Shown here in pieces: positions 1,184 through 38,329 of a stretch of 64,000 nt of DNA. The notes under the pieces are model-generated. The model saw only the letters and a list, made by a program, of their open reading frames with translations, did not search any database and was not told the origin of the DNA. This stretch comes from Rhizoclosmatium globosum (Eukaryota; Chytridiomycota; Chytridiomycetes; Chytridiales; Chytriomycetaceae), in the NCBI GenBank assembly GCA_002104985.1, contig MCGO01000003.1, positions 1-64,000 of the forward strand, in the 5' to 3' direction. The position numbers were made by a program, and so were the translations under genes. Numbering within the stretch: the stretch's first letter is position 1; each line of letters opens with the position of its first letter.

Positions 1184-1399
1184 TAGTGTGCAAGACGTAA
1201 ATTGCCAACTATGCTTGTTTACTTTATTAAATGTGGTTAAAAAATAAAAGATGTACAATCAGATTGTTCGTGAATTCTTGATTTGCAACTGTTTGCTCAA
1301 TATATGGCAGAAATAACTTATACACAAAGATCTTAACCCGAAAAAGCAATGAAATCAAAAACTTTTCATATTAAAACGTCGTCAGTTTAAAGAAGTGGA

Positions 1400-1816
1400 C
1401 TTGAGGTTTAAGCTGTCTAACTTCAATTCTCACCAAGGTCACAAACATCCGACACACATGCATCCACCACTCAATAACATCTACACAATCAACTTTAATT
1501 AGTTATGTTAGCTTTGAGTGGATATTCGCCGTGTGCGGGTAAAACGTAACTTAAGGCTTTAGTCCAGAATCCTATCAGTACATGCTCCCACACCTCAAAC
1601 ACATCTATAAAGTCAAGTTTGATAGTTTACTTTAGTTCTGAGTGGATATTAGTGGTGTGCGGGGAAAACGTAACTTGAGGCTCAAGTCAGCCAACTTCAG
1701 GCTCAAGTCCAGAATCCTCTCAGCTCATGCACCCATGACTCAAACAATCTATAAAGTCAAGTTTACTAAGACATGTTAGTTTCAAGTGCATATTAGAGGT
1801 GTGAGGGTAAAGCGGT
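1400..1816. repeat. Three degenerate tandem copies of about 125-145 bp
   Basis: Three related segments share the landmark gtgtgNGGGNaaa followed by acgtaacttNaggct at about 1531 and 1655, with a truncated third landmark at about 1799. Each copy also carries a tcaaacacatctataaagtcaagtt-like stretch and a gagtggatatt-like stretch. No coding potential is visible. They lie inside the inverted-repeat element, downstream (3') of its gene. Confidence 0.65.
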
Positions 1817-2324
1817 GACTGGGAACCTCAACCAATTTGGTAGAAGTGGTCGAAAAAGGTTGAGAGTTAGAGCTTTCTTGTTGGTTTGTCCATGGGCAGT
1901 TACCAGTCTCGCACAGTGGCGGTTGCTTCTTTATCTTTGAAGGCAGGTCAAGTTGTGGTGCTGAGGAGATACTGTGGCAAGGTGCACTGGAGGCATTGAG
2001 ATGGAAGACACAGAGGTGACAAGTCAGGTAGGCAAGAGCTCCAATAGGAGTCTGTGACGTGGGTCCTGAACCAGGATCAACAAGGCCTGATGCCATGGAA
2101 GGTGAGGATTGGGCTAATATTCTGAAATAATTGTAAACACAGCAGCAATTCAGTGATTCAAAGTGGCTGTGAGTTGAGCAAGTAGACCAATGCAAGTAAA
2201 GCAGTGAGCACAACTACAGTAGTGATAGGCATCTTGGTTAATAAAGAACTGAAATGTTTTATTGAGGTTAAATGAATGGTGCGTTTTTGTTTTGAGCCAG
2301 TGATACTTCTTTGTAAACAACTCC

Positions 2325-6145: not shown

Positions 6146-9100
6146 CTACTTGTTGAGAGTGAGGGAAAAGAGTTTCTTTCCAGCAGTCCAGATAACAGAT
6201 GAATTGGAAAAACCATCAATTTCTGTGCTAAGGCAGTACAACAGTGTCTTACCTTGGCAAACCCAACCATCCTGAACAGTCAACTTGGATGGAAAGAATA
6301 CTTGTGTGGAATTACTTCCATCCCAATTGCGCCTTTCAAGAAATTGGCCTGTTTTCACAGCCCACAATGTGACTGTCATGTCAAGCGATTGAGAAACCAC
6401 AGTCGTGGAATCAGGTGCAAATGCCACTGAAGTCACACCCCTAGAATGCCCTACAAGGGTCTTGGAAAGTTTCCCAGTTTTCACATCCCACAATTTGACT
6501 GTTCTGTCATCTGATCCAGAAACAACAGTCTTGCCGTCAAGTGAAAATGCCACAGAACTCACTCCATCAGAATGCCCTTCAAGAGTGACACATTCCCCAG
6601 TTTCCACAGACCACAATTTGACAGTCCTGTCAAATGATCCAGAAACCACAGTGTTGCAGTCTGGCGAGACTGCCACTGCATTCACACATTCAGAATGCCC
6701 CTTAAAGGTATTGATGAGTTTCCCTGTCATCACATCCCACAATTTGACTGTCATGTCATATGATCCAGAAACCACTGTCATGGAATCAGGTGAAAATGCC
6801 ACTGAAGTCACACCGCTAGAATGCCCTTCAAGTGTCGCAAGACATTCCCCTGTTTCCACATCCCACAATTTGACTGTTCTGTCATCTGATCCAAAAATTG
6901 CACATTTGGAGTCAGATGAGAATGCCACAGAATTCACGAAGTAAAAATTTCCAATGAAAGTCTTCCAACATTCCCCAGTTTCCACATCCCACAATTTGAC
7001 TGTGTTATCATATGATCCAGAAACCACAGCCTTGGAGTCAGCCACATATGCTACTGAAGTCACACTCCTAGAATGCCCTAAAAGAGTCTTGAAGAGTTTC
7101 CCTGTTTTCACATTCCACAATTTGACTGTTCTGTCATCTGATCCAGAAACAACAGTCTTGCCGTCAGGTGAGAATGCTACTGAAGTCACACCCCTAGAAT
7201 GATCCTCAAAGGTCTTGGAAAGTTTCCCAGTTTTCACATCCCACAATTTGACTGTTCTGTCATCTGATCCAGAAACAACAGTCTTGCCGTCAAGTGAGAA
7301 TGCCGCAGAACTCACTCCCCCAGAATGCCCTTCAAGAGTGACACATTCCCCAGTTTCCACAGACCACAATTTGACAGTCCTGTCAAATGATCCAGAAACC
7401 ACAGTGTTGCAGTCTAGCGAGAATGCCACTGCATTCACACATTCAGAATGCCCCTTAAAGGTATTGACGAGTTTCCCTGTTTTCAAATCCCACAATTTGA
7501 CTGTTGTGTCATATGATCCAGAAACCACAGTCATGGTGTCAGGCGAGAATGCCACAGCCTCCACAGTGCTATCATGCCCTTCAAAAGTCTTGAGATATTG
7601 GCCTGTTTTCACATCCCACAATCTGACTGTCCCATCACGTGATCCAGAAACCACAATCTCGGAATCAGGCGAGAAAGCCACTGAAGTTACACTCTCAGAA
7701 TGTCCAACAAAGGTGTCGGAAAGTTGCCCAGTTTCCACAGACCACAATTTGACTGTCTTGTCACTTGAACCAGAAACTATTGTCTTGGAGTCAGTTGAAA
7801 ATGCCACTGACTTCACACCTCTAGAATGTCCAAGAAGTGTGAATGGCCCCCAATCTTTTTCGGCACCAATAGTTAAACGTGCAGAGGCTAGTCCCTGATA
7901 CAGCTGGTAATACACGCTTTTTTGTGGCACTCCAATCAATGCATGGTTGTAGACTTGAAGAGGGCTCACCAACAACTGGGTACGGAAGTTGATGACAACG
8001 CACTTCAGGTCATTGAGTAATGAAAGTATTTCATGCCAAGCCAAAGGTGAGTTGTCCAACAGTGACTCAAACCTGACTTCCCGAAGACATGCAGTAAGAT
8101 CAGCAACAAGACGGGGAATATCATTTAATTTGTTAAGCAGAATAAGGGCTTCCAGGTAGTAAACAAGTTTTGTTTCACAGAACTTGACAAATAAGCATAT
8201 CAGTTCCTTTTTATCGTCAATAGCACAGTCACTACTGAGAGCCTCAATAAAGTGTAAATGCCAAAACTGCACGCCATATACCAACTCTTCAGACAAGGTG
8301 TTCCCACTGTAGAATTCAGAAGCAGTAGCAGACAAGTTGGCCATGTTTTTGAAGAGAAACTTGCCACCACAAAAACGCTTTAAATATGTTTTGGCTATCT
8401 GAACTGACATTGACTGTCCATCAATTGAAAACAATGTCTTTTCATCAGAGAGATATTCACGCACTGTTTTGTGAATGAAGTGAAGCTTGCCATCCAGCAA
8501 ATCATCAGGATCATCATTATAGAGCAAGGATGAACTGCGTTCAACATAATCTCTGACAGCAAATATTTCTTCTAATGAGGGGTTTTCTGAATTGGGAAGG
8601 CCGTCAAATTCAGCAACCAGCCTGGCAATTAACCTCAATGAAACTGGAACCTTGGCATGCAAAACAAATCCAATTGCAGCTTGGAAATACTTTTTGTCTT
8701 CACTGGGAGGATACGCCCTTTCAAAAGCCAAAGTGTAGAAATCATACAACTTCAACTTGGCAATTTCTTGCAATTCTATTTTGAGAAGCTCCATCATCTG
8801 GGTACTATTGCTTTCAATCCATGGAATATTCTTGTATGTTTTTGTCAAGGAAAATATATTCAACGCCATTGCTGCCCAAATGAACAATCCATTTGACTTT
8901 TCTTTGAAGAAATTTGCCAGTATGGCAATGTCTCCATCAGTGAAATTTCTTTTTATAAGATATGGTTTGAGTTGGGTGGTGGCAAACAATTCAATATCTT
9001 CCAAGTTATGTTGTTTATCATCATTTTCATGAGGGAAGTCCCTGATGATTGCCATCAAACAATCTGGTAATATTTGTTCCATATCAGCCTTAGTAGTTCT

Positions 9101-14727: not shown

Positions 14728-17700
14728 TTAGGCATGTTCTGTCGCAGCAACAGGTTGTTCAACTGGAGCATCAGTAGTCTGTTCAACGGAAGCTTCAACT
14801 TGGGGCTCAACAGCCTTTTCGTCAGTTGAAACAACTTGCTCCGCCGCAGCTTCGATAGGCTGTTCTGGAGCCGCAACAGTCTCTTCGACAACCTCCTCAA
14901 CAGGAGGTGGCGGCGGTGCTGGACAGGCGATAGACTTGAACGCATTCACAAACGCCTCGTCATCAAAGACCTGAATTCCATCAACAACCAAAACAAATCC
15001 CTCCGCATCAATAGCTTGAGTGCGAACCGCAAACGCCTCAGCCTTTTCCCCAACAACTCCGTCCTTGTACACCAACGCATTATTACATTCCTCAGACTCC
15101 AAGCAAATAATAACAGTCTCATTCAAGCCTGGAAGATCTTTGGCGAAAGCTTCCAACTCGTCCGCAGTATATCCAACAGTAATATTCGCGGATGGATTAG
15201 CAGTTCCGACCAACTCAACAGCATGAGCAGTAGCATTTTCGTTCTTGAGGTCAGACCAAATGTAGACTTGGTTACGAGAACAGCTGTCACCAGGAGGCAA
15301 AACGACAAGAACCACAACAACAGCAATGATAGCAACCAACAACGACACAATCACGATAACCAAACCACCGCCGCCACCAGACGCTGGAGCAACTGGTGTA
15401 GTTTCGGCAGTGTTTACTCCTCTTGATGTTTCCACGACAGGTGCATCCGAATCAAGGGTGATTTCACGGCTTTTAGATTCTCCAACAACAACATCTTCAG
15501 TGGCTGTCTCGACAATGGTAGGTCCAGCTGGCTGTTCCTCGACAACAGCCTCAACAACAGTTTCTTCCTTCACAGTGGTGACAGTTTCAACTACAACTGG
15601 TTCAGATTCACCTTCACGGGTTTCAACGGTAGTCACTGTTGTGGTGGTGGTGATAATTGTAGTGGAAGATTCTTGTGGAACGATGGTAGAATCAGTCGCA
15701 GCGCCAGACTCAATCACAGCTTCGTCAACTACAACTTCCCTGGTAGCCTCAGTCGCAGCAGCCTCACTCACAAGAGCTTCGGCTTTGACTTCCGAAACAG
15801 TCTCGAGCACAACAGCTTCTGTGTTGGCGTCTCTCGCAGTCTCATTCACAACAGTATCGCTGACAACAGCCTCGCTTACAACCGTTTCGGTGTTAACATC
15901 TTGAGAAGTCTCATTTGTAACAGTTTCAACTACAGCAGCTTCGGCAGTGACAACCGCCACAGTCTCTACAGTTTCAACGTTGACTTCACTCGAAGTCTCC
16001 TTCGCAACACCCTCGCTTACGACCGTTTCAGTGTTAACTTCTCTAGTCGTGTCATTCGAAACAGTTTCAATCACAACAGTTTCGGTGATGACTTCACGAG
16101 TTTCGACAGCTGGATGCGCTTCAGTCACGACAGTGACAACTTCAGGAACCACAGTGTCTGAACTGATTGCAGTAGTCTCAACAACCTGAACAACAGTCTC
16201 GTTAACTACAATATCTCTCGACTTGCTTGAAATGTCGTCAATAGGTTCATGAGCGACAGCCTCGTTGCTTTCGATGACTGTTGGGGCAACAACACCGGTA
16301 TCAATCGCCATATCGGCCTTGTCTTGAGTCACAGAAGTAACAACCACTGATTTCTCAGTGGAGGTTGGAACTTCATCAGAGGTTTCAATTGTGTTCGTGG
16401 TAGTCGTAGTGGTGGTTGTGATGACTGTAGTTGTTGTAGACGTTTCAACTTCAGCAACTGGCTCCGCGGTCTCCGAAACAACTTCAACACAAACAGCTTC
16501 AGTAATTCCCATAGCTTCCACGGGGAGAACATCCTGTTTTAGAGAAGCGTCAACGGCAACATTAGATTCCGCGACAGTAGTTTCCTTCTCAGCGAAATCA
16601 ACAGTGTTAGGGCTTGTAGACTCAGCAACGGTCTCTGATACAACGACAGTGGATTCGTGATTATCTTCAAAATTTTCTTCGACAGCTGCAACGACCTCAA
16701 CCGTTGTCACTGCCACAGCAGCTTGGGTTGCAATGACATCAACATCCGCTGCTTGAAGCGAATCAACCACTGGTGGTACTTCGACAGAAACCACCTCTGG
16801 CTCCGCGATAATTGCAACGGCTTCAGATAAAGTACCAACATGAGGGGCTGCAACCACTGTCTCATTCGATTCGTTAACAGCACGGTCAACGGAATCGGCC
16901 TGAATAGTATCAACAACCTCAGTTGCAACAACGGTTTCCTTTGAGACACTTGTATCGTTTTCGACACCATCAATCGTTGTTGTTGTCTTTGTCGTTGTAA
17001 TAGTGGTAATAGTGATGGTCTTGGTGACAGAGTTTTGAGCCTCTTCAATGGCAGGATCAACAGCAATTAAAGCGCCTGATTGCTCAACAGAAACAGATTC
17101 AACGACAACTTCGCTTGGAACGTATGAAGGAACAGCTTCTTTGGTTGCTACTTCAGCTTGAACTGTTGGCTCCACAGTGTCAACAATCGCCACAGGAACA
17201 ATAGTCACCGCAACGTCATCAACATCCACAATTGCAAGAGGAACTTCACCCACAACTGGTGTCGACTCAACGACAACTTCTCTTGGAACATATTCACCGA
17301 CAACAACACTGGACTCCTCAACCGTTGATGTTGGCTCCAGAGAAGAGCTCGACGTTTCCACCGCGGTAACAGTCGTGGTTTCCACTGTTTCCACTGATTC
17401 GACACTTTGCACGGTTTCGACTGGAGCCGACTTAGATACGTCAACTTCCTCGATCTGTTGCACAGATTGTTCAACAGGGACAGACTCAGCGTAAGAAGCC
17501 GCAGCGATTTCGTCAGGTTCAACAGGATCAAGAACAAAGTGCTGAGTTTCAACGACTGGCTCAGCATTGGCTGTCTCTGTAACAACAGTGTCGTCAACAA
17601 TCACGCCTTCAGCAGTCTGTGTAACCACAATAGTCTCCGTAACAACCCTTCCTTCAGTGGTAGTGACAATTACATCTGTTGTAACTCGAGAATCCGCTGT

Positions 17701-20700
17701 TTCAGTCACCACCATATCTTCGACGATTTCTGCGTCCGCGGTTTCCGTAACAATGATGGTCTCCGTCACAACAGACTCGACAGTCTTGGTTTCAATCACG
17801 TCCACCACAACAACACCCGTGGCAGTTTCATTCACAGTGATACCTTCAGTCACAATCGCACCATCTGCTCGTTCTGTCACAGTGATGGTCTCCGTGACCT
17901 TCCCGTCTGAAGTCTCGGCAACAGCAACCTCGCTGGCTTCCTTGGTGGCTTCCACTTCGATTGGTGCGATTTCCACAACATCGATATCAGCGACTGGAAC
18001 TTGTACAACTGGCGCATCCTCGGCAACCTCAACAATTGCAGGCTGTGAGACAGTGGAGGCGCATTCCTCTGTTGTGGTGAGGACTTCGGGTGCACCTGTG
18101 GATTCAATAATGATGACCTTTTCGACTTCGGTGTTTGGGGGCGTCGATTCAATGACAACATCTTTAGACTCTGGGACTTCAGCCGTCGAAACTTCAACCG
18201 CGACGAGATTAATTAAATCAATTATTGAAAGAAGCAAGTTACCTGGTTGAATTTCGCTCACAATAACTTCTGGAGCAATAACTTTGTCTCTAATCGATGC
18301 CAGTGATGCTTCAACTTCAATCACATCGATCTTTGGAAAAGAAGTGTCAGTTGTAACAACTTGATCAATGGTTTCCCTTGAAGTCTCCATTTTGATCGTT
18401 TCGATTGATGACACTGCGATAGTATTCTGAACTATTGCAGTGGCGCTTTCTTCTGTTTTAGAAGGTTCTTCGACAGTTTCAATCACAATGATTTCTTCTG
18501 CATCTGTGCGTACAGGAGTTGATGCCTCTTGAACATTGACTCCAGAAGAGTACTCTGAAAGAAGAGAAGTCGAGTGCAATGAGTTAAGTAAAATCTATCA
18601 TTCATAAGAGGATTACCTGGCTGGATCTCGGTGATGATAGCCTCCGACAATGTGACCGTTTCTGAAACAGATGGCTGAGGAACATCAACAAAAATCTTTT
18701 CAACCTTTTCAGAAGCTGAAGTTTCTGTGACAATAACCTCGCTAATGTCTTTAGAACTCTTCACTTCAACGTTCTCAATTGACACTTCCGTAACATCTGC
18801 GACAGAAACGTCCTCAACGATTTGAGTAAGTGCAGGTTGGATGACAGAATCTCCTTCTGCGGTAATTACGTCAGAAGTTTTCAGAGCAACGATTTCTTCG
18901 ACGTTTGTTTCTGGAAGTGCTTCAATGACAATGTCTCTTGAAGAGAGCTCTGAGACGGTAATGGTCGAAACTTCAGCTGAAAAAAGTTCAGTCTATGTGA
19001 TGATTCAAAAGGCGACGTTACCTGGCTGGCTTTCGTTCACAATAACTTCCGAAACAAAAACTTGTTCTCCAACAGTTGGCTCGGACGAAAGAATAACCGT
19101 CTCGAGCTTTGGAGTGGCTGGTGCATCTAAAACTATATCGCGTGAAACAACTTCGTGAACGGGTGTGATGGCAGCTGGAAAACATTATTAGTAAATGATT
19201 TGATAAAAACTAATTTCTACTTGTTGTTGCTTCAGTGGTTGCCTCAGAAATTGAAAAAACTGGGGCTTTTGTTTCTGTCGTAGTTGTTGTTATTGTGGTC
19301 ATCGTAGTTTTCGTTGAACTACTCGAAGAAGAGTTTCCCCAAATAGATGCAAAGAGACCACGTTTCTTTGGCGGCGCTTGCTGACTCTCTGTAGCCGGCA
19401 AGTCGGTTGAAGAAACATTTTCTTCAACCAATTCAACACTGACTGTCTCAGCTTCTGCAATGCTCTCGGGCTCATTAATTGCGTCAATCGCCTTAGCAAT
19501 AATCTGAGATTCACTGTTCACAATGTTGGCTTCAGCCTGTGGAGCCACCTTGCATATCAACATTTCAGAAACACGAAAACAATGAAAAGATAAACATACA
19601 GTCACCTGTTCCGGAACAGGATCGGTAATTACGGTTTCTACGACGTACACTTCACTTTGAACGTTGTCAGGAGCGACGACGGGACCCTTTAAATTTTAGC
19701 CATGAGAAACTATAGATGAGGACAAGCAAAAATAGGCAATCTTACGGTCTCGTTCAAGATGTTCCCATCTTGCGTTTCAACCACGTGGACATCACTGTGA
19801 ACTGTGCTTTCAATAGGTACCTCGCCCTAAAATACATTAAAAGACAAAACTGTGGCCCATCATTCTTACGGTATCTGCTTCTTTGTGAAGGACAAAATCC
19901 ACAACTGAGTGTTCGACTTTTTCGACGGCGGTTTCTACAGCCTCAATGACAACCTCGAACAAAGAGCGATGTGGCTGAATCTCTGAAACTTCGGCAGTTT
20001 CTTCAACATTCTGCGCTCTGGGTACAGTTTCGACAACAATATTGCCGAGCGCCAAGTTTCGTTCCTCAGTTTCTGACGATACAGTCTGAATAGCTGTGAT
20101 TGTATTCACAGCTCCTGATTGGGAAATGTCTTCTTGAGCTGCGTCAATTTCAGATGTAGAAGCTGAAAGAACGTCGCCCACTACATTATCCCTTGACTCC
20201 GTAGCGCCAGTGTCTAGTGTTTGAACGATTGGAGTGTTATTGATTTCGACAGCTTCGGTGGCTTCAATAGTTGACGCCACAATGACTGATTCTGTTTCGA
20301 ACGCAATTGCCTTGGATTCTAGCACAACCACATGATTCAATTCAGAAGGCAGTACTTCTTCATCAATGTCTCCGACAATCGCGACTTTCTCTGCGACTTG
20401 TTCTGCAACAGCTGTTACATCTCGTGCATAAACAGGCTCTAGCTCGAGAATTTCAACAGTCGCTGCTGTGGATGGAAATTCTTCGATTGAGGGAGGAATA
20501 GCGTCTCTGCATCCTGAATCACTAGCGATATTTATCGCTGCTTCAGATGAGCTTGTCTCTATTTCTTTACGCGAAACTGGGGCCCATTCAATAGTTGCAA
20601 TATCTTGAAGAGTATCCTTTGACGCGTTGGTCTCAGGGGGCTCCAAAGTGTAACTTTTCGATTCAACCACAGCTGGTCCATCAGAAGTTTCAGTCACAAT

Positions 20701-23700
20701 AGTATCCTCCACAGTAACGCCTTCCGAAGTCTGAGTGACAATGATAGTCTCAGTTACAATGCGGTCCTCCGTAGTTGTGACAATGACGTCTTTGGTGATT
20801 CGAGATTCACAGTCTCAGTCACAATCACATCTTCCACCACTTCAAGATTAGCCGTCTTGTTGATAGTTATCGTCTCTGTAATAACTGAATCATCCGCCTT
20901 TGTCTCAATAACATCCGTAACTACAATGCGGGAAGGGGTCTCCACAACTGTTAGATCCTCTGTGACAACTGCACCGTCAAGATTTTCAGAAACTGTAATG
21001 GTTTCAGTCACTCTTGTGTCATCTGTCACTGTAACAACGATATCTTGAACGGCGTCATCTGTCACAGTGACAGTTTCAATAACAACTGGTTCCTCAACTA
21101 AGGGTGCAGATTCAGGAATTTGTGCAGATTTTTCTTCGACAGAAGAAGATTCAACCTCGGCAGTGATCGTGTTTACCACATCATCCGAAGCTGGAACTTC
21201 TCGAGAAACATCTCTGGAAATGATTTCTGAAGGCTCTTCTGCAGAACCAATATCAGACATCACAAAAATCAATGATCTGAACAATTTACCGTTGTAGACT
21301 TCAGTGTCCATGACTTCTTGAGGTCTAGCTTCGTATTCAGATCTGGTGGTGGTAGTGGTTGTCGTTGTCGCAGTAGTAATCACACTGTTGCTAGGGGACT
21401 TCTTTGACCCAAAGATGGTTGTGAAGAAACCGCCTCGCTTGCTTGATTCATTCTCAATTGTTTTTTCATCAGTTGCTGCTTTGTTTTCAAGTGGAACAAC
21501 ATCCGTTGAACTTGATTCTGACACAGCCACAACAGTCGTATCAGGAATGGCTTCAGATTCACCCAAAATAGAATTCTACCAAAAGAATTAGCCAATAAAT
21601 AGAGAGGAGGCGAAAAATACTTGCATTAATTTGAGACACAAATTCTCTTGCTTCAGTGGACTCAACTTCTCTTGTCAGAACAAAATGACGCTTTCGAGTC
21701 AACAAACTCTCGTCTTCAACAGCCAATTCTTCAGCCAAATCGTCAGATGACGCCAAGTGACTTTCTGCAGTGGGTTCTGTGTTATTAATAACATCAACGA
21801 CAGTTTTTTCTTCGAAATTCACATGCGCACCATCAAGTGGACTGGTGGTCTGTTTTGTTTCAACAGTTGTGATGACGGATTTAGACCCTTCAAACTCATT
21901 CACCACTGTGTCTTCTACAGTTACTCCGTCAGTAGTTTCCGTAGTAATAATGGTTTCAGTCACAACATGCCCGTCAGAAGTGGTGGTGATAACGTCTTTT
22001 GTGACTCTGGAATCAGCTGTCTCTGTGACGATTACATCTTCAACAACTTCCGCGTCCTTTGTTTCAGTTATGATAATGGTTTCAGTGACTTTGGTATCGC
22101 TTGACTTGGTTTCAATTACATCAACAAGTGTAACAAGACCTGGAGCGACAGAGACAATGAGATCCTCCACCACAACTGCCCCATTAGTAGTTTCAGTGAC
22201 AGTAATAGTCTCCGTGATTTTCGCATCCTTAGTGTCCGTGACCGTGATATCTTGGATGCTGTCGTCAGTAAACGTAACAGTTTCAGTCACAGTCGCCTGT
22301 TCAACAACTGGGACATTATCAGCAACTTCAATCACTTGAACATTTTGACTCGATTCCAATGTTTCGCATGCATCAATAGCAGGGTCTTCTTCGATTCTAA
22401 CTCCTTCAGCAACTATATTGTCCTTGGTTTCGATAGCTGAAGAAATTTTGGTGGTATAAGTAATATCTTCATTAGCTTCTGGAATTACACTTGTCTCCAC
22501 AATGATCGGAGCTTCTGTTGATGCGGCTCCTTCAGCAGGCAATGGCTCTGTCGCATTTTCTGCAGGCGATGGCTCAACAATGACAACGTCACGAGCGATG
22601 TATTCAGAAACAACTGAAGAGAGGTTAGTGAAACCAAATGTCGAATGTAACTTAGTCACCTGGTTCAATAAAAGAAACTGCTTCGGATGGTGCACTTGTT
22701 CGCTCTGATGTGGCAGCTACTTCAGCAGGCAATGATTCTGTTGCAATCTCTGCAGCCAGTGGTTCATCGATAACAATATCCCGTGTAATGGGTTCAGAAA
22801 CAACTGCAGAGAAGTCAGTAAAAAAAGTGTCGTCTTCAATACGGTTACCTGGTTTGGACTCGTCGAGAAGAACAGCTTCTGAAGGGGTCACCGTTGGTTT
22901 CTCTGGTGCTTCGCTCGCTGTCGAAAGAATTTTGGTTGCAGCCGCGGCACTCGCTAAGATGGGAGCACTGCCCCAAATAGACGAAAAGAATCCTCCGCGT
23001 TTCTTTGGTGCAGCCTCTACTGCGACAGTCTCTTTAACTTCAGTGACTGTCACAGTTTCAACAACGGTTGATTCAGCTGGCTCAGGAACAATCTGAACTG
23101 GTTCCATTGCCTTATCCTCAACAACGGCAACAGATTCTGTTTCCACCACCGAAACACTTTCCACGAGAGCTTCGGTTGATGTTGGTTCAGCCTCTTTAAC
23201 TTCCGTGACGACTACCTTTTCGACCGCAGTTTCAGTTTCAGGCAAAATCGCTGGCTCAGTTTCCAATTTAGGAGGAGCATCAACTGCTTTGCTTACTTTC
23301 TCGTCAACGACAACAACAGTCTCTGTCTCCAACGTTTTGATGTATTCCGACGCTACAACTTCGGTTGAAGTTGACGTATTCTCCGTTGGTACATCTTCGA
23401 TGATAATATCACGAGTTTCGACAGCTGGATGCTCTTCAGTCACGACAGTGACAACTTCAGGAACCACAGTGTCTGAAGTGATTGCAGTAGTCTCAACAAC
23501 CTCAACAGTCTCGTCAACTACAATATCTCTCGACTTGCTTGAAATGTCTTCAATAGGTTCATAAGCGACAGCCTCGTTGCTTTCGATGACTGCTGGGGCA
23601 ACAACACCGGTATCAATCGCCATATCGGCCTTGTCTTGAGTCACAGAAGTAACAACCACTGATTTCTCAGTGGAGGTTGGAACTTCATCAGAGGTTTCAA

Positions 23701-26700
23701 TTGTGTTCGTGGTAGTCGTAGTGATGGTTGTGATGACTGTAGTTGTTGTAGACGTTTCAACTTCAGCAACTGGCTCCGCGGTCTCCGAAACAACTTCAAC
23801 ACAAACAGCTTCAGTAATTCCGATAGCTTCGACGGGGAGAACGACTTTTTCTAGAGAAGCGTCAACGACAGCATTAGATTCCGCCACAACAGTTTCCTTC
23901 TCAGCAATATCAGCAGTGTTAGGGCTTGTTGACTCGACAACGGTCTCTGACACAACGACAGTGGATTCGTGATGACCTTCGACATTTTCTTCGACAGCTG
24001 CAACGACCTCAACCGTTTTCACAGCAGCTTGGGTGGCAATGACATCAGCATCCGCTGCTTGAAGCGAATTAACCACTGGTTGAACTTCGACCGTAACCAC
24101 CTCTGGCTCCGCGATAATTGCAACGGCTTCAGATAAAGTACCAACATGAGGGGCTGCAACCACTGTCTCATTCGATTCGTTAACAGCATGGTCAACGGAA
24201 TCGGTCTGAATAGTATCAAGAACCTCAGTTGCAACAACGGTTTCCTTTGAGACACTTGTATCGTTCTCGACACCATCGATTGTTGTTGTTGTCGTCGTCG
24301 TTGTAATAGTGGTAATAGTGGTGGTCTTGGTGACAGAGCTTTGAGCCTCTTCAAAGGCAGGATCAACTGCAAGTAAAGCGCCTGATTGCTCAACAGAAAT
24401 AGATTCTTCGATAACTTCGCTTGGAACGTATGAAGGAACAGCCTCTTTGGTTGCTACTTCAGCTTGAACTGTTGGCTCCACAGTGTCAACAATCGCCACA
24501 GGAACAACAGTTACCACAACGTCATCGACATCCACAATTGCAAGAGGAGCTTCAGCCACAACTGGTGTCGACTCAACGACAACTTCTCTTGGAACATATT
24601 CACCGACAACAGCACTGGACTCCTCAACCGTTGATGTTGGCTCCAGAGAAGAGCTCGACGTTTCCACCGCGGTTACAGTCGTGGTTTCCACCGTTTCCAC
24701 CGTTTCCACCGTTTCCACCGTTTCCACCGTTTCCACCGTTTCCACTGTTTCCACTGATTCGACACTTTGTACGGTTTCGACAGGAGCTGACTTAGACACA
24801 TCAACTTCCTCAAACTGTTGCGAAGATCGTTCCACAGGGACAGACCCAGCGTAAGAAACCGCAGCGATTTCGGCAGGTTCGACAGGCTCAAGAACAAAGT
24901 GCTGGGTTTCAACGACTGGCTCAGCATTAGCTGTCTCTGTAACAACAGTGTCATCAACAATCACGCCTTCAGCAGTTTGCGTAACCACAATAGTCTCCGT
25001 AACAACCCGTCCTTCAGTGGTAGTGACAATCACATCTGTTGTGACTCGAGAATCCGCTGTTTCAGTCACCACCATATCTTCGACGATTTCCGCGTCCGCG
25101 GTTTCCGTAACAATGATGGTTTCCGTCACAACAGACTCGACAGTCTTGGTTTCAATCACGTCCACCACAACAACACCCGTGGCAGTTTCATTCACAGTGA
25201 TATCTTCAGTCACAATCGCACCATCTGCTCGTTCTGTCACGGTAATGGTCTCCGTGACCTTCCCGTCCGAAGTTTCGGCAACAGCAACCTCGCTGGCTTC
25301 CTTGGTGGCTTCCACTTCGATTGGTGCGATTTCCACAACATCGATATCAGCGACTGGAACTTGTACAACTGGCGCATCCTCGGCAACCTCAACAATTGCA
25401 GGCTGTGAGACAGTGGAGGCGCATTCCTCTGTTGTGGTGAGGACTTCGGGTGCACCTGTGGATTCAATAATGATGACCTTTTCGACTTCGGTGTTTGGGG
25501 GCGTCGATTCAATGACAACATCTTTAGACTCTGGGACTTCAGCCGTCGAAACTTCAACTGCAACTAGATTAATTACATCGATATTGCAAAAAAGAAAATA
25601 CCTGGCTGACTTTCACTTGCAATACCTTCTGAAACATTGACTTGTTCCGCAGTAGATGTGTCTGGCGATAAAACAATAGCCGTTTCGACTGCAGGTGCTT
25701 CCAAGAGAATGTCGCGGGTAATGGTTTCGACAACAGGTGTGATTGCGGCTGAAAATGAAAATTAGTCAAGAGTATCGTTACGAAGAAGTTCTACCTTTTG
25801 AAACATCAGTGGTAGTGATGGATTCAGAAACTGCTGGGAAGCTTGTTTCTGTTGAAGTTGTGGTGGTTGTGGTGGTTGTTGTGGTGGTTTTTGTTGATTT
25901 ACTTGATGGAGAACTTCCCCAAAGAGATGCGAAGAGCCCACGTTTCTTTGGTGGTGCCTGCTCTGCCACAGGCACACTGGCCGTTATTTTTTCGTCAACT
26001 ACTTCGACAACATTTTCGGTTGGGATAGCTGTAAACGTTTGGGATTCCTGTCTGGGATCGACTGTTTCAATGCTACTCGAGAGTTTGTTCTCAAGAGTGC
26101 CATATCCAGTGGAAACTGTATCACGATCAATGGTGTCGATTGAAGGATCCACCTTAATCAAAAATTTGTCAGAAGCGAAATAAAAAGAGAACTACATACA
26201 GAATCCTCGACAATGGCATTGCTTACCAAGGAATCAGCGACTGGAACTTCAATCTGAGTACTCTCAGTGTTAGTTGAAGTTTCAATCACGACAATATCTT
26301 TCTTAATGGTCTCCTCAAGGGAAACTTGAACCTAAACGAGTGTTAGACAAGTTTTTGTGCAAAATTTCACTTACTGGTTCCTTCTGGGGCATTAAGTCTG
26401 AAACTGTTTGTTCTACCTTATCAACAGCAGTTTCTACGGCTTCAACCACGACATCAAATAGGGAAAGATGTGACTTTATAGTCGAGGAATTAATCGACTC
26501 TTCCACCTGAGATTCTTCGGATTCGACGAGAACATTTGAGGGCTTCTCTGTTGACAATCCAAACGATTCAGTTTCCACAGTCGTAACAGTTGTTCTTTCT
26601 TCAACAATTGTTGGTACATTTTCGACGGCAACATCTCTTGTTGAAACCAAAAAACCTTCAACTACATCAGTGGTTGGCGCATTGGAACCTTTTGAAGTGT

Positions 26701-29700
26701 CGTTCTCCTCGAGAAGTATCTGAACAGGAGGCGTTCCAACAGGGGCTGCTTCGTTGGGAGAAATGTCAGCCACAACCACCATGGGCTCAGCAAACTCCCT
26801 AGATTGTACTTCCACGGCGCTTTCTGTTGAAATAACGGTATAGCTAGCGATATTAACGTCGTCAACTGCAGGAGTTACTATATTTTCAGGAGTGGAAGCT
26901 TCCAAGAATACTTCCGAAACCGTCGATTCAAGTTTTTCTGTAATGACCTGCGCATTGGGTGTGGCATTATCTTGAATAGCATCCTTTGACTCGTTTGTCT
27001 CAGGGGGCTCCAAAGTGTAACTTTTCGATTCAACCACAGCTGGTCCATCAGAAGTTTCAGTCACAATAGTATCCTCCACAGTAACGCCTTCCGAAGTCTG
27101 AGTGACAATGATAGTCTCAGTTACAATGCGGTCCTCCGTAGTTGTGACAATGACGTCTTTGGTGATTCGAGATTCACCAGTCTCAGTCACAATCACATCT
27201 TCCACCACTTCAAGATTCGCCGTCTTGTTGATAGTTATCGTCTCTGTAATAACTGAATCATCCGCCTTTGTCTCAATAACATCCGTAACTACAATGCGGG
27301 AAGGGGTCTCCACAACTGTTAGATCCTCTGTAACAACTGCACCGTCAAGATTTTCAGAAACTGTGATGGTTTCAGTTACTTTTGTGTCATCTGTCACTGT
27401 TACAACCACGTCTTGAATGACATTGTCCGAGACTGTCACAGTCTCAAGAACAACTGGCTCTTCCAGAGCAGAAATTGATTCAATACTTTGAACTGGCGTA
27501 AAATTGGATTCAGTGGCATACGATGTGGTGACAACAGGAGCAGTCTCAGTGATATCTCGTGTAACGACTTCCTCAACAGTATTTGAGGCAAGATATGACT
27601 CACTCTCCGACGTGGCTACATTCACTGGAATGCCATCCTGTAAATTTGAAGCTGTTGCTGATGTTGTTGTGGTAGTGGTTGTGGTTGTGGTTGTGGTCGT
27701 AGTTGTTTTATGGTTTGGAGTGTCCTTGACCCCAAATAATGATGAAAAGAATCCACTTCGACTCGGTGATTCCGAAGATTCAACAGGAGTTTGATCAATT
27801 TCAGGGAGTTCTGCAACTTCGGTTGATTCAGTTGCAATCTCACGGACAGTTTCTTGAAAAATCTCAACGTCCTCTCTTGTGGCATCATTCACAATGTCAC
27901 TATCATTCAATTTTACTGAATCAGAAACATCCTAAGTCAATTCAAATTAGATTAAGTCAAAATAAGTTAAAAACACTCACCGCCGTGAGATCAATCTCGG
28001 TTTCTTGTTGATCCGCGTTCACGATTCTTTCCAAGACAAAATGTTGTTTGCGCTTGGACGACTTTTCCCCACCTGATTCGGCCGTTTCTTGTGCATCTGC
28101 GTTAATAGGAGCATCAGTTGATTCGGCTGAAGAGCCAAGTTCATTTTCCGCCGGTTCAGACGACGTCTTGTCCAAAGAAACAGGCTCGGCAACTTCAACG
28201 TTTGCTGCATCCGAAGCCTTGATTGTAAAGCTTTGTGTTTCAACCACTGGATGAGCACCGACAGTTTCTACAACAACAGTGTCTTGGACTGAGACTGATT
28301 CTGCAGTGCGCGTCACAAGAATGGTTTCGGTAACAACCTGTCCATCAGTAGTAGTAATTATCACGTCTTTGGTGACTCTGGAATCTGCGGTCTCTGTGAC
28401 AATCACATCTTCAACAACTTCCGCGTCCTTTGTTTCAGTAATGATAATGGTTTCAGTGACTTTAGAATCACTTGACTTGGTTTCAATTACATCTACTAGT
28501 GTAACAAGACCTGGTGTTTCAGTGATTACCAAATCCTCGACCACAACTGCACCATTCGCTGTTTCCGTAACAGTGATAGTCTCAGTAATTTTTTCATCGA
28601 CCGCGGTCGTAATAGTGACATCTTGAATAGAATTGTCAGTAATAGAAACTGTTTCAACCACTTTGGGTGTGTCAGCAAGAGCATCATCAACAACTTTAGA
28701 AACATGAACGGATTCGTATGATTCTAGTGTAATGTTCTGTTCAGCAACGGTGGGAGATACTGGGTTTGCAGTTGCCTCAACAACTGTAACATTGGAAGTC
28801 TCAGCCACTACTGACTCTTCCACAGTCTCAACGCTTGAAGAAGCTAGTTCGACCTCACACGCTGGAATTGTACTTGTCTCAACAATGACAGGAGCTTCCG
28901 TTGATGCGACTTCCTCGGCAGGCAATGGCTCTGTCACATTTTCTGCAGGTGATGGCTCATCAATGACAAAGTCACGAGCGATGTATTCAGAAACAACTGA
29001 AGAGAGGTTAGTGAAACCAAATGTCGAATGTAACTTTGTCACCTGGTTCAACAGAAGAAACTGCCTCAGATGGTACACTCGTTGCTTTCTCCGCTACGTC
29101 ATTTGTGACAGCTACTACTTCAGCGGGCAATGATTCTGTCATAATTTCTGCAGCCAGTGGTTCATCGATAACAATATCCCGTGTAATGGGTTCAGAAACA
29201 ACTGCAGAGAAGTCAGTAAAAAAAGTGTCGTCTTCAATACGGTTACCTGGTTTGGACTCGTCGAGAAGAACAGCTTCTGAAGGGGTCGCTGTTGGTTTCT
29301 CGGGCGCTTCGCTGGCTGTCGAAAGAATTTTGGTTGCAGCCGCGGCACTCGCTAAGATGGGAGCACTGCCCCAAATGGACGAAAAGAATCCTCCGCGTTT
29401 CTTTGGTGCTGCCTCTACTGCGACAGTCTCTTTTACGACAGTCTCTTTAACTTCAGTGACTGTCACAGTTTCAACAACCGTTGATGCAGCTGGCTCAGAA
29501 ACATTCTGAACTGGTTCCACTGCCTTATCCTCAACAACGACAACAGATTCTGTTTCCACGACCGAAACATTTTCCACGAGAGCTTCGGTTGGCGTTGGTT
29601 CCGCCACTTTAACTTCCGTTACTGTAACAGTTTCCGTCACGGTTTCGGTCTCAGTTTCGGCAACAATCGATGCGATCGGCTCCATCTCCGTTTTTGGAGC

Positions 29701-32700
29701 ATAATTGACAGCTTCAATGGGGTTCTCTTCAACGGCAACGACAGACTCTGCCTCCGGCACGATGACAGTTTCCACTGCAATCACTTGAGTAGGTGTTGAT
29801 ACAGTGGGTGCAGAATCTACAACCGTGACCACTTCAGTCACAGCTGATGCGACTGGTTCAATTTCAGTCTTTGGAGAATCATTGACTGCTTCAACGGCGG
29901 TTTCTTCAACAGTGACAACAGTCTCTGTCTCCACCACAGTGACAGTGTCAATGGCTGGGACTTCAGTTTCTGTTTGTGCAGCCTCCTTCACCTCCGTAAC
30001 TATCGTAGTTTCGGTGACAGTGTTAGTCTCAGCTTCGGTTGAAATCGACACGACTGGCTCGGTTTCCGTTGTTGGAGCATAATTGACAGCCTCAATGGCT
30101 TTCTCTTCAACAGCAACAACAGCCTCGCTCTCCACACTGCGACATTTTCTAACACAAGAACTTCTGTTGGTAAGTTTCGCTGACAGGAACAACACCCTAC
30201 CAGATTTTGTAAGATTAATAAGAAAAGAATAAATCCTACCACGTCTTTGTGAGAGACCAATTCCGCCACCTTGTGTTCAATAGTTTCGACAGCAGTTTCG
30301 ACAGCTTCAACTACTCTGCTAAGCAACGAATGATGCTCTTGGTTGCTTTCAACGACAGTGGCATCGTTGGGGCATCTTTGGAAACGACAGTTTCGTAATC
30401 AGTAGCAGCTGTCAGACTTCGCTTTCTTTGGATTCTGTAGTGATAGTTGTCGTTGTGGTCGTTGTGACGGCACTCTGAGTGACAGTTTCAATAGTAGGAA
30501 TTGACGTGACTCTTCTTGAACGATAATCTCTCTCGTTTGCACAGTATCAATTTGTTCAACATTGACAGTAGCAACTTCTCGGTGATTTCTGCAGATGCAG
30601 TCGCAACAATCACGACTTCACTTGTGCGGCGGCCAAGGCATTCTCTTTGGAGTCTCTTGAGGTACTGTTGCACATTCGACGATGTCGGTAATAACAGTTG
30701 AGGATTCAATGGTGAACTAGATTCTTCTGTCGTAACTGTTGTCACAGTCGTCGTTGTCGTTGTAGTGACAGTAGACTCTTCACCAACTACATTACTCTCC
30801 AGCACACTTCTTTCGGAAACAACAGAAGATTCTTCAGCTGGAAGAATCTCAGAGTCGGCAATAGGCTCTTGGGCGACAGGTTGTTCGTCAACAACTACGA
30901 TTTCTTCTTGGACGACAGCTTCGGCGGGATCTTCAACAGGTCGATTGTCGCGTCCAATACCGCAACCGATTCTGATGTTTCAACAACATTCCAGCAGCAG
31001 ATTTTTACTGGTGGTTGTAGTTCTTGTGTTGTGGTTGTCTTGGCCCGATCGGCTTCTTAACTGGCGACGCCGCCGACTTGACCGAAGTCGCAGCAGTTCT
31101 TTGACTCAGCGTCGTTGGTCTAGTGGTACTCGCTGGTGTGGTAGGAGTTGTTTGTCTCGAAGTCGAGACTGACGTCCTTGTTACAACAGGTGTAGCTGGG
31201 GTTTTAGTGGAAGTGGTTGTGGTGGTTCTTCGGGTGACAGTAGGTTGAGACGTCGATGTTGTCGCAAGAGTCTGCTTTCGGACTGCAGCAGGAGAAGCCA
31301 CACTGCGGGAAGTAATGGTTGGTCTCGGTACCGTGACTGGCGGTCTGGTGGAGGAAGAGGAGGTGCTACTGCTCTTTGAAGAAATCGAGGGCGAACGGCT
31401 TGTAGTCGTGGTGGTGGTTCGTTTCGCGGCTGTTGGTGTCGTTGAGGAAGTCTTCTTGGCAGTTGGAAGCTTTGTGGAGGTCGTACCTTCTTGCTCGAAT
31501 GACTTTGCTCTTTGTTTCACGTCTGGCCATTGAGTGACGGACGACTTTTTCTTTGGTCCGAGAGTTGGACTGGTCTTTGTGAAAGTGGAACCCTTCGAGG
31601 CCTTGACGATGGACGGCTTGATGCTTGCACCATCCGTGTCAGCATCGCTTAAAACAGATTCAGAGGTGATTGAGAATCTTCATCCTCTCGTGCCGAAACT
31701 TCCGTGACCTCGACAGGACTTTCAGCATCACCTTCCGCAGTCTCGTCATTACTTCCAATTCTTCTTCTTCTTCCTCAAGATCATCTTCCACGACTTCGTT
31801 AGATGAGCCGTAGTCATCCAACACGTATTCGATCGCGTCATCGGTTTCAACCTTCTCCAAGTCTACCAATTCGACGTCGACGACAGATTTCGCTTCATCG
31901 ATTTGCTGGTAAGGAACAGTATCAACGGTGAAAATAGATGATGTTGTGGATTTTGAGGGGAAATGAGAACTGAATCGACTTCGCAACTTTGAAGAAGAAC
32001 GCGGAGGACTCGCTTCGCCAAAAGCCTCTTGCTCTCCAGAGTCGCCAACAATATCAGATTCAATCGTATCTAATACGATCTCTCGGGTCTCTGTGGTGGT
32101 AATACTGACCGGCTCCTTAGATGGCTCTGGGACAACTGAAGCATTAGTTGTTTCGGAAGTCTTCGTGGTGGTTGTGACAGTAGTTTTGGTTTCAGCAGCA
32201 GGGGTGCTGCTTCCAAAGAATGACGAAAAGAATCCCGCTTTCTTCTTTGGAGCCTCCTCAACAACTGCAGTGGCCTTCTCAACGATAGTCGATGAAGTGA
32301 CTTCAGGGATTGACTTAACATTCTCAGCGAGGGCTGGAATGGGGGTATCAACAATGACTGGCTCTTCGTCGGCAGGTTTGACAAGTTCCCGATTCTTCTT
32401 GACAGTAGTGACTTCAGTAGTTTCGGTGACGTAAACTGTTTTTACACGCTTTTGTGCTTGGTATACGGCATAGGCTTCAGCGTTACGAGCCAACGCCTTG
32501 TTAACGTTTTCTTGAAGGGAAACAAGCCTAAACTTATATGTGAACACAATGAGGCTGGAATATATCGGTAAGTACAAAAAATAAGTAAATAATGTGTAAG
32601 AAAATTACATACAATTCGTTCTTGATAAGAGCAGCAGCAAGAGCTTCCTCAGCTTCAGCTGAAGCAACAACCTTCTGCTCGCCAATCTTGAGTTCACGCA

Positions 32701-33514
32701 GATGCTGGTTGATCGAAATAGCCTTAGCAAGTGCCAAAAGACCTTCACTGTCGATCTCGTTTCCCTGGAGATCAAGCTTTTCAAGTGTTGTATTCGAATG
32801 GAGTGCCTGTCAAAATCGAATGAGCCATCTGGACACCCACAGGCTTTCCCTATCTACAAACCTCAGCGATCATAACAACATCTTCAGTTGTAAGACCATC
32901 GTCATTCAGCTCAAGGGCAGCGATACCGGCATTACTCCGGATTTCACCGGCAAGCCAAACCAAGTCCAAGTCTCCTTCTTCAACAATTGTCTCCTCCAAT
33001 TCCTTCTTGTCTTCTTCAACAACAATCTCGACAGGCTTCAAAGAAGTAACTTGACGCGTCTCGGTGATTACGATTTCCTTAATGATTTCGCCATGTTCGC
33101 CAATGATAGTGGATTCGTTGGTGGCAACGACGGTGCTGGGCTCGGTGGCCTCCAAAGTTGCATTCTAATAAAGGGAAGGTTGTTAAGATGACGTGTGGTG
33201 ATATCCCAAGCATATCAATATTTGATCTTGAGACTCAATTTACCTCTGAGACGACCCTGGTGGTCGTTGTGACGGTCTGGGCACCGTCGATCAATGAGGT
33301 GCTAGAGTTTGTATCCTGTATGCCTGTTACGGCAGCTGCCTCAGTCGGAACGACTGGTGTGTCAGCTGTGTTCTGGATTTAAGGGTACAAGCGTTAGTCG
33401 TTTTACTGCCAAGAGAGCATCGGAATGTGAATGCATTTCGATATTAAGCTATTGGTTTGATAGTAGGGAGCTTTCAAGGGAATAGGAGAGCAGACGAAGG
33501 GGACTCACAGGCAT
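14728..33514 (-). CDS. Giant modular Val/Thr/Glu-rich membrane protein with tropomodulin-like LRR N terminus
   Basis: I read one minus-strand gene. ATG CCT at 33514 forms a two-codon exon with donor GTGAGT. It is followed by an Asn/Thr-rich exon (about 33244-33372), a tropomodulin-like LRR (33.17-32.6 kb) and long low-complexity T/V/E-rich exons. One membrane span lies near 15.3 kb, then a glycosylatable ectodomain, stop at 14728. About 24 introns of 45-60 bp are visible; those tested from 29 to 18 kb are mostly phase 1 with the exon ending ...PG|GTAA or GTGA. Repeated modules include VTETITVTETADGAVVTED-type strands, seven GFFSS-type motifs and three EAVETAVE helices. The whole would be near 5,800 residues. 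Frame shifts near 20.81, 29.9-30.8 and 31.0-31.75 kb interrupt it; the first is a one-base loss relative to its own paralogous copy. If some shifts are real, it is two or more genes. An actin-to-membrane linker is a speculative role. Confidence 0.55.
14933..15385 (-). other. Membrane span and Cys-containing ectodomain at the giant protein's C terminus
   Basis: A Gly run and a roughly 23-residue Val/Ile/Leu/Ala stretch (about 15300-15372) form a clear transmembrane helix. It is followed by about 115 residues with four cysteines (CSRN, CLES, CNN, CPAP) and three N-x-T sequons (NAT, NIT, NET), then a Pro run and an acidic tail. Sequons occur only after the helix, which supports cytosolic repeats and an external C terminus. 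The fold is unrecognised. Confidence 0.75.
16096..18213 (-). repeat. Intragenic duplicate block A1
   Basis: Nearly identical to 23411-25573 in the same orientation. It includes the VTETITVTERADGAIV module and the ITTITTT stretches. Length 2,118 bp against 2,163 bp; the 45-bp difference is explained by six extra 9-bp units in the other copy minus 9 bp of small deletions there. Confidence 0.85.
20636..23150 (-). repeat. Intragenic duplicate block B1
   Basis: Related to 26996-29560 at an offset of about 6.36-6.4 kb, with the same module order. The first 400 bp are near-identical apart from a few substitutions and a one-base deletion at 20809-20812. The stretches around 21.9-22.25 kb and 22.5-23.1 kb are also close matches; between them similarity drops. 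Confidence 0.75.
23411..25573 (-). repeat. Intragenic duplicate block A2
   Basis: Partner of 16096-18213. It carries an expanded 9-bp tandem repeat (gtttccacc) at about 24684-24754 that encodes VET eight times, against twice in block A1. At its 5' end the intron acceptor reads gcag where block A1 reads gcgg. Confidence 0.85.
26996..29560 (-). repeat. Intragenic duplicate block B2
   Basis: Partner of 20636-23150. It keeps the reading frame at 27171-27180 (gattcaccag), where block B1 has lost a C. Confidence 0.75.
32590..33175 (-). other. Tropomodulin-like leucine-rich repeat domain of the giant gene
   Basis: Exons here read VWLAGEIRSNAGIAALELND, then, after an intron of about 55 bp (donor GTTTGTAG, acceptor GACAG), ALHSNTTLEKLDLQGNEI and ISINQHLRELKIGEQKV, continuing into ENVNKALARNAEAYAVY after the intron near 32533-32620. 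Alternating LxxLxLxxN and the final HLRELKI-type repeat followed by a charged helix match tropomodulin/leiomodin C-terminal LRRs. Those domains bind actin pointed ends; actin binding here is inferred only. Confidence 0.65.
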
Positions 33515-36228: not shown

Positions 36229-38329
36229 ATGTCCACCACCGCCGCCATCGACGCTCCTGAAACTGCGTATGCGGCTGTAAGCGAGGCTGTCTCATCCGCA
36301 GCCACATCAACCGAGGCCAAGCTGGATCAGTACATTGCCTCAGCAACGCCAAAGCCAGTCACTGCCACTGCCACTGCGGAACAAGTGGCTGAAGCTGCGC
36401 CATCGGGTACATTCACTTTCCCCGTCTTCCCTCCCTCTCTTGCCATTCCATTCGTACCCTCCTTTCCCTCCTTCCAGCCACCCGATTCCACAACAAATTA
36501 CTAACCGTCACATCCGCACACTTAAAGCTCCTTACGCTGCCGTCCTCTCCGCCGTTCAACACATCCAAGAAGAGAAACAAGACGCAAAAGAGAAACTCTC
36601 CCACCTCATTGAAGAGAAAGCCGCCAAAGTCGAAACACAAGTAAAGCTCTCTGCCGTTCTCAGCGATGTTGCACACTTGAAGGAGGAAAAGGAGGAAGGA
36701 AAGGAGAAGCTCGCTCAATTGTTGGAGGAGAAGGCTGCACGTGTGGAAGCACAGGCGAAACTTGCCGCTGTCTTGAACGATGTGGAGCATTTGGGCGAGG
36801 AGAAGGAAGAGGGAAAGGAAAAGCTTGCCAACCTGTTCGAAGCCAAGGCCGCTAAAGTCGAGGCTCAATCTAAACTCGCTGCCGTCCTGCACGATGTGGA
36901 ACACTTGAAAGAGGAGAAGGAGGAAGGCAAAGAGAAGCTTGCTCACTCTTTGAGCCAAAGCAGCTCAAGTCGAATCCGCGCATAAATTGGATTCCGTCTT
37001 GGACGATATCAAGCAAGGCGAAGCTGCACACGTTCTCACTCACCATGTGAACCCCACGTGTCTCACGCCCCTATCGTTGAAGAAACCCAAACCTATGGAA
37101 CCAAGGAAATCACAGCCGACGAAACAACAGTAAAGCACAACCTCGCCGCCGTCCTGCACGACGTGGAACACTTGAAAGAGGAAAATGAGGAAGGAAAGGA
37201 AAAGCTTGAACACTTGTTTGCCGAAAAAGCTGCGAAAGTCGAGTCTGCGCATAAACTGGATTCCGTCTTGGACGACATCAAGCACGGTGAAGCCACCCAC
37301 GTTCTCACTCACCATGTTGAACCCCACGTGTCTCACGCACCTATTGTCGATGAAGTTCCAGTCGAGGCTGCTAAAGACGTTGAACCAGAAGTCGTGAAGC
37401 ACAACCTCGCTGCAGTCTTGAACGACGTGCAACAGTTGAAGGAAGAAAAGGAGGAAGGAAAAGAAAAGATTGCCCACCTCTTTGAAGAGAAAGCTGCCCG
37501 TGTTGAAGCACAAGCGAAACTCGCTGCCGTCTTGCACGAAGTTGAACACCTGGGTGAAGAAAAGGAAGAGGGCAAGGAAAAGCTCGCCAATCTGTTCGAA
37601 GCCAAAGCCGCGAAAGTCGAAGCTCAATCTAAACTTGCTGCAGTGCTTCATGATGTGGAACACTTGAAGGAGGAGAAAGAGGAAGGAAAAGAGAAGCTTG
37701 CACACTTGTTTGAGGAGAAGGCTGCTAAATTGGATGCGACACACAAGCTTGACTCTGTGTTGAATGACATTGAGCATGTGAATGCTGCGCAAGTGCTTTC
37801 TCACCACGTTGAGCCACATGTTTCTCACGCGCCTGTTGTGGATGAGGAGGCTGCTCCTGTTGCTCAATATGATGCCGTTCCAGCGCAGGTTGAGGCGCCA
37901 GCACAAGTTGAGGAGACTACCTACGCTGCTGTTAAGGAGACTGTTGCTGTTGAACAGGTTTCTGTTGCTACTGCTGCTACGGTTGTTGAGGAAAAGATTG
38001 TGGAAGTTGTGACTGAGACCACCCAGGTTACTGAATCAATTACAACTACTACTACCAGTGCTGTCACTGAAACTGCGGCTACTGAAACTACAGCCACCAC
38101 TGAAACTGTTGAAGCAACTGCCACTGCCACCACAGCTGAAAGTGAGGGAATCACTACAGTAATTATCAAGACAGCCAACCAAGGATTGAGCTCATTGTAC
38201 CGATTTGTGCGCAAGTCATTCTACAAGGACCCAGCGTCACCAGTTGTAGGAGATGCTCCACCTGTTCCAGCTCCAGCCAGTGGCGAGACTGAAGCATCCG
38301 CTCCAACACCAGCAGCCACCTCTGCTTAA
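36229..38329 (+). CDS. Coiled-coil protein with eight 38-residue Lys/Glu repeats
   Basis: The start MSTTAAIDAPETAYAAV at 36229 is followed by an intron at about 36406-36527. Then come eight repeats of the type KLAAVLHDVEHLKEEKEEGK plus EKLAHLFEEKAAKVEAQ. Some units are followed by HKLDSVLDDIKHGEATHVL and a THHVEPHVSHAPIV linker. The C terminus is Thr/Val/Glu-rich (VTETTQVTESITTTTT) and ends with a SLYRFVRKSFYKDP segment and a Pro/Ala tail. Heptad-like spacing suggests long amphipathic helices. The frame is lost near 36945 and 37047; restoring two bases and one base respectively recovers the repeat consensus. No signal peptide or membrane span. The T/V/E-rich segment resembles the giant gene. 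Family unknown; cytoskeletal, membrane-surface or desiccation-type roles are guesses. Confidence 0.75.

Follow-up and report, generated by a model that had tools for sequence, protein, structure and literature searches.

The window, by which we mean the whole stretch of 64,000 nucleotides of Rhizoclosmatium globosum DNA that was analysed, sits on contig C223 of an assembly of 56.9 Mb in 420 contigs, and its sequence gives good support to a single minus-strand gene with the architecture listed in Table 1. Chained open frames begin with an ATG at 33514 and run down to the stop codon at 14730–14728, both within the window; upstream of the ATG, an in-frame stop lies at 33601. From the N- to the C-terminus, the predicted parts are an LRR head, an acidic T/V/E-rich spacer of ~5,400 aa, one strong transmembrane helix, an ectodomain and a short tail. 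Elsewhere in the window we observed a repeat with a period of 126 bp in a minus-strand frame of 1,088 aa (6351–7828; WD40-like by period alone), repeats with a period of 114 bp and 69–72% matches (36611–37698), and a Pro-rich repeat array with units of 228 bp (94% matches) and 129 bp (99% matches) (57451–58724).

Table 1. Features of the giant minus-strand gene, with positions in the window
Feature	Positions	Strand	Remarks
Whole gene	14728..33514	minus	~5,800 aa; 19 accepted introns; frameshift cluster within
First exon, ATG CCT	33509..33514	minus	from sequence and gene model
Head, tropomodulin/leiomodin ABS2-like LRR domain	32440..32981	minus	exons 32981-32862, 32806-32613, 32554-32440
Spacer	15364..32439	minus	about 5,400 aa, T/V/E/S-rich
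Cluster of frameshift points, possible assembly errors	30365..31752	minus	gene model
Internal duplicate pair	16081..18272 + 23396..25631	minus	94.7% identical DNA
Internal duplicate pair	22479..23206 + 28862..29619	minus	92.3% identical DNA
Internal duplicate pair	20594..21089 + 26961..27457	minus	94.6% identical DNA
Internal duplicate pair	21946..22221 + 28317..28592	minus	84.4% identical DNA
Transmembrane helix LVIVIVSLLVAIIAVVVVLVVL	15298..15363	minus	KD 3.68
Ectodomain, 121 aa, 4 Cys, 3 sequons	14920..15282	minus	probable kin to N-terminal alpha/beta domain of GH67/GH84/GH20-fold protein family
C-terminal tail, 63 aa, Pro-, Glu-, Val-rich	14731..14919	minus	gene model

An intron- and frameshift-tolerant gene model yielded 5,826 aa with 21 introns and nine frameshift points. 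Nineteen introns of 43–136 bp were accepted, 17 of them with an A+T content of at least 61%, and the largest non-coding gap in the accepted list is 136 bp; the remaining two model introns (30695–30621 and 30239–30130) lie among or beside the frameshifts at 31.75–30.36 kb. The duplicate copy has an intron at 25601–25558, which suggests a possible twentieth one near 18.43 kb. The initial annotation had described about 19 kb of minus-strand coding sequence, an extent that these frames and gap sizes confirm, and about 24 introns, which is too many.

The modelled spacer (5,381 aa; V 17.2%, T 15.5%, E 13.9%, S 9.6%; net charge -765) repeats a KKRGGFFSSIWGS-type motif six times and a 30-residue EAVETAVEKVEH-type module three times, and has 12 runs of at least five Thr; P0124 of Siphonaria sp. 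JEL0065 carries the module once. Together with the internal duplicates, these bear out the earlier description of thousands of T/V/E-rich residues with recurring modules. The dN/dS set was drawn from six self-match rows: rows one and two were treated as one pair, and row six (74.7% over 190 bp) was excluded. Across the four duplicate pairs dN/dS was 0.39, 0.17, 0.10 and 0.31, values that indicate direction rather than size, being based on 86–697 codons, hand-set frames and simple counting; the gaps were 54, 1, 6 and 3 bp, then 1 bp, none, and 15 and 15 bp. The two 1-bp gaps would fit frameshift errors.

Eight of the nine frameshift points fall between 31750 and 30365, where the coding pattern switches frame. 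Many loci occur twice in the assembly with main alignments 95.8–97.8% identical (nine comparisons), and we read these doubled loci as alleles. Assembly error is a plausible source of the cluster, because in these nine comparisons the allelic contig pairs show between 10 and 75 gap openings over 4.1–9.5 kb; genuine frameshifts are possible as well. Over its C-terminal 734 residues the model aligns without gaps, at 91.7% identity, with P0001, a partial protein from Rhizoclosmatium sp. JEL0117 and the sole match to the tail among 2,234 candidates of the protein collection (lengths 0.55–1.75x the query). Judging by this identity and by the dN/dS of the internal copies, the gene model is more than a product of chance. 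The number of frameshift points, and a DNA search of the assembly with the head region that found no second allele, would suit a decaying gene with real frameshifts, which we nevertheless regard as very improbable in view of the clustering of the points, the low internal dN/dS (0.10–0.39) and the intact tail in JEL0117.

No signal-like hydrophobic stretch was found at the N-terminus, where the best 19-residue KD among the first 60 starts is 0.34. The 5,826-aa model contains one strong hydrophobic stretch, and P0001 has the same helix (KD 3.67). Six weaker V-rich stretches (KD 1.63–2.07) were considered as further transmembrane helices and discounted, each being interrupted by Asp or Glu. The single transmembrane helix of the initial annotation therefore stands, as do the four Cys and three sequons counted beyond it. 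Because there is no signal-like N-terminus and the single helix comes late, the head and spacer are probably cytosolic; the Cys, the sequons and the helix suggest that the ectodomain lies outside the cell or in a lumen.

Pfam and NCBIfam searches with the tail and with paralogue pieces gave the ectodomain family no match near the cut-off. Pairwise BLAST matched the ectodomain to a unit of locus L031 (22% identity over 107 columns, E 5e-11) and to a unit of the Siphonaria protein P0126 (E 6e-8), and a profile comparison of the window unit with the enzyme-like family, L031 being left out, gave a weak match. This enzyme-like family, which holds parts of L031 and P0126, has 852 matches at E ≤0.01 among 7,047 candidates, and the named ones among the 120 matches listed (P0002–P0121) come from chytrids and bacteria (Myxococcota, Deltaproteobacteria, Uabimicrobium), for which transfer between kingdoms is possible. 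In PDB sequence searches with two enzyme pieces, the best rows had E values of only 0.046 and higher. The predicted fold of P0012 (pLDDT 89.5) placed GH67 alpha-glucuronidases in Foldseek rows 1–9, followed, within the best 50 rows, mostly by GH84 and GH20, with TM-scores of 0.36–0.52 by query length and 9–12% identity. On sequence comparison and fold prediction, the ectodomain is probably related to the non-catalytic domain at the N-terminus of a family with a glycoside-hydrolase fold. No catalytic barrel occurs in the window protein: past the helix and a short linker there are only the ectodomain and the tail before the stop. A sister gene in which the enzyme-like part is fused hints at an uncommon path by which an enzyme became an anchor. 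In the scanned pieces of the family itself (L031:4271–5275, L032 and P0002–P0121), Pfam gave no match above the cut-off. Ten chytrid members were scanned for a hydrophobic stretch resembling a signal peptide at the N-terminus; P0007, P0011 and P0113 have one, and the other seven do not.

A protein search of the R. globosum genome with the head gave 32 matches at E ≤0.001, three of them in the window gene and the other 29 at 14 places that form seven pairs; therefore, together with the window gene, there are at least eight head genes. Two head matches besides those of the window gene lie ~30 kb past the window (L041 and L042, C223:94116–99520), with a near-identical copy on C53. The tail found seven matches in the genome, namely itself and six at four places that form two pairs (C409, C236, C415 and C57), and each of these four loci, which represent the allelic pairs of two genes, has a head match upstream of it on the same strand. 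In Siphonaria, P0126 (1,500 aa, partial, flagged UNVERIFIED_CONTAM) carries head, spacer, helix (KD 3.69), ectodomain and an enzyme-like part in one chain. Since the two parts co-occur at all four other tail loci found in the genome and are joined in P0126, the head and tail appear to belong together, and the search for the same combination elsewhere, proposed with the initial annotation, thus had a positive outcome. A reading as two or more independent genes that were joined by eye could be entertained on the grounds that the frameshift cluster near 31 kb parts the head from most of the spacer and that the gene is known from DNA alone; with no accepted non-coding gap exceeding 136 bp, the paralogous pairs and the joined P0126, we reject this reading as having little chance of being right, and the single gene originally proposed survives.

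The membrane anchor holds for some members of the family only. The C236 gene encodes the helix (KD 3.44) and the ectodomain in a single frame without interruption, and P0125 has a C-terminal hydrophobic stretch of KD 2.54; in the C415 gene the best stretch ahead of the first of two ectodomain units reaches a KD of only 1.51, and no hydrophobic stretch at KD 1.9 was found in P0122, P0123 or the partial P0124. Beside a head gene with two ectodomain units stand tandem frames that look like seven-helix receptors (L033 and L034, ~1–3000), and in P0125 a BET domain (PF17035, 1.5e-16; residues 205–264) lies between two tropomodulin-like heads. A head search of the protein collection, which scored the 7,998 candidates sharing most words, with limited lengths, and covers these alone, returned 27 proteins. 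Physocladia and Siphonaria supply the five best (E 9e-89 to 2e-41). Of the remaining 22 (best 3.6e-29), 21 carry PF13516; among the 22 are proteins of algae, fish and corals and an RNI-like protein of a basidiomycete (E 7e-6). The three chytrid genera, Rhizoclosmatium, Physocladia and Siphonaria, belong to the Chytriomycetaceae, and R. globosum to the Chytridiales.

The acceptor of the last head intron must be at 32555, because the peptide LIVFTYKFRLVSLQENVNKALARN then aligns with the paralogues, and the join gives a peptide with KNEFLIVFTYKFRLVSLQENVNKALARN; position 32528, which the gene models chose, was rejected on the same paralogues. The head carries PF13516 (LRR_6) in one stretch (32.9 bits, cut-off 23.4) and matches leiomodin-1 ABS2 over 92 residues without gaps (35.6 bits), with a collinear C-terminal cap. 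Profile comparison likewise places the R. globosum heads near the tropomodulin/leiomodin ABS2. For the predicted fold of P0122, a homologue 54% identical to the head, Foldseek rows 1–12 are all chains of tropomodulin or leiomodin entries, and the best E of this family is ~1000-fold below that of the next other row. The resemblance to the tropomodulin/leiomodin ABS2 thus holds on the sequence and on the modelled homologue.

The part of tropomodulin described by PF03250 was looked for and not found: there was no match in the window head piece, taken without its first 45 residues (E up to 10), or in P0122, P0124, P0125 and P0126 (E up to 1). A genome search with PF03250 also gave no match, but its controls gave none either, so it has no bearing on a classical tropomodulin. 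In the tropomodulin-1 rows of P0122 the match begins between residues 182 and 197, and residues 1–70 of the P0122 model have a pLDDT below 50. The tropomodulin-like LRR of the initial annotation is accordingly upheld by the sequence match and the fold of the homologue, but tropomodulin is an unsuitable name, as a protein in which PF03250 was not found does not qualify as a strict tropomodulin. According to PMC4571291, the ABS2 of leiomodin nucleates actin and is also able to bind along the sides of filaments, and residues 164–186 of Tmod1, the N-terminal capping element of ABS2, are, besides ABS1 and TMBS2, critical for capping. Given that PF03250 gave no match, we lean towards a leiomodin-like nucleation or side binding of actin. 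A tropomyosin-like gene is also present in the genome (C61:12548–13144 and C24:76265–76861), with 74.4 and 72.9 bits with neighbours against a cut-off of 38.6; in the same search, five of 14 control genomes matched, below the cut-off.

On the one hand, the head could be a general protein-binding scaffold of the RNI or axonemal type, which within the same architecture would anchor a partner other than actin. By whole-protein score, the first row of the tropomodulin family is preceded by 36, 14 (profile) and 4 (the search that matched leiomodin-1) other PDB rows, totals compatible with an ordinary RNI, and axonemal LRR proteins follow close behind the tropomodulin family in Z in the fold comparison of P0122. 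On the other hand, the fold ranking, with its unbroken first 12 rows and its gap in E, and the gapless leiomodin match in a single stretch that includes the cap outweigh these totals, and we consider the scaffold unlikely, though far from negligible.

The best explanation, to which we give about an even chance, is a membrane-anchored, actin-binding linker that would work like a leiomodin-headed membrane linker. Its head would bind actin filaments in the manner of the leiomodin or tropomodulin ABS2, its spacer would form a flexible tether, with a full extension of ~1.9 micrometres if 0.36 nm per residue is assumed, and its ectodomain would attach to glycans of the wall or to partners in the lumen; the protein would thereby couple actin to a membrane. 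The initial annotation, which proposed a cytoskeleton-to-membrane linker or elastic spacer, is supported in part, whereas elasticity, like actin binding and location, is putative. The protein might instead be a LINC-like linker of the nuclear envelope, with the head on cytoplasmic actin and the ectodomain in the perinuclear space. Such a linker would have the part order of giant nesprins in its favour. It would also explain the perinuclear actin shells reported for R. globosum (PMC8887899). We consider it improbable, as no KASH or CH match was found in the head piece or at 14731–18594 (Pfam, E up to 10), no spectrin repeat was found in the spacer exons scanned (14731–18594, 22655–25612 and 26318–27931), and a glycosidase-related ectodomain suits the wall or cell surface equally. 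More tentatively, and with distinctly less than an even chance, we suggest that leiomodin-like actin binders form a protein family in chytrids of the Chytriomycetaceae and that part of this family is membrane-tethered. The window member could then be a micrometre-scale tether that nucleates or holds filaments at the membrane and grips glycans across it through a retired glycosidase domain, and would thus parallel, in a fungus and by independent origin, the linkers of the membrane skeleton in animals.

Proteins of the tropomodulin type have been described in animals. In the literature searched, we found no report of a tropomodulin in chytrids or Chytridiomycota, no report of LRR membrane proteins in Rhizoclosmatium and no prior description of a head–spacer–helix–ectodomain architecture, and the titles and opening lines of abstracts on fungi with LRR or pointed ends describe no fungal tropomodulin; among these are PMC4542287, PMC10638096 and a paper on Fusarium capping proteins (PMC6988429). 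The perinuclear actin shells of R. globosum are credited to Prostak 2021 in PMC8887899 and PMC12050087. If the proposed linker is real, it would be a concrete candidate for tying chytrid actin to membranes in an early-diverging fungus with such shells, might represent an unrecognised way to tie the cell skeleton to a membrane, and would bear on the age of the tropomodulin fold.

Among known systems, giant nesprins combine an N-terminal actin-binding part, a very long spacer, a C-terminal helix and a short luminal part, an order that the window protein shares; it differs from them in lacking CH, spectrin and KASH matches in the scanned pieces. We know of no membrane anchor in axonemal LRR proteins (DRC5/TCTE1 and others), which, unlike the tropomodulin family, rank beneath all of the first 12 Foldseek rows. 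Plant class I transmembrane formins are unlike the window protein in the size and order of their parts. They place an actin factor on one side of the membrane and possible wall-binding motifs on the other, a split that is also proposed here, whereas their actin domain is a formin domain (PMC11194305). The window ectodomain resembles the N-terminal domain of the fused members among the GH67/GH84/GH20-fold enzymes and their chytrid and bacterial relatives; in contrast to these, the window protein has this domain only, without a catalytic barrel. With tropomodulin and leiomodin it shares the ABS2 LRR fold, as predicted for the homologue P0122, the gapless C-terminal cap and a long last helix, whereas it has no match to the region of TMBS1, ABS1 and TMBS2 (PF03250) and is instead predicted to be membrane-anchored, with a giant spacer and a glycosidase-related ectodomain.
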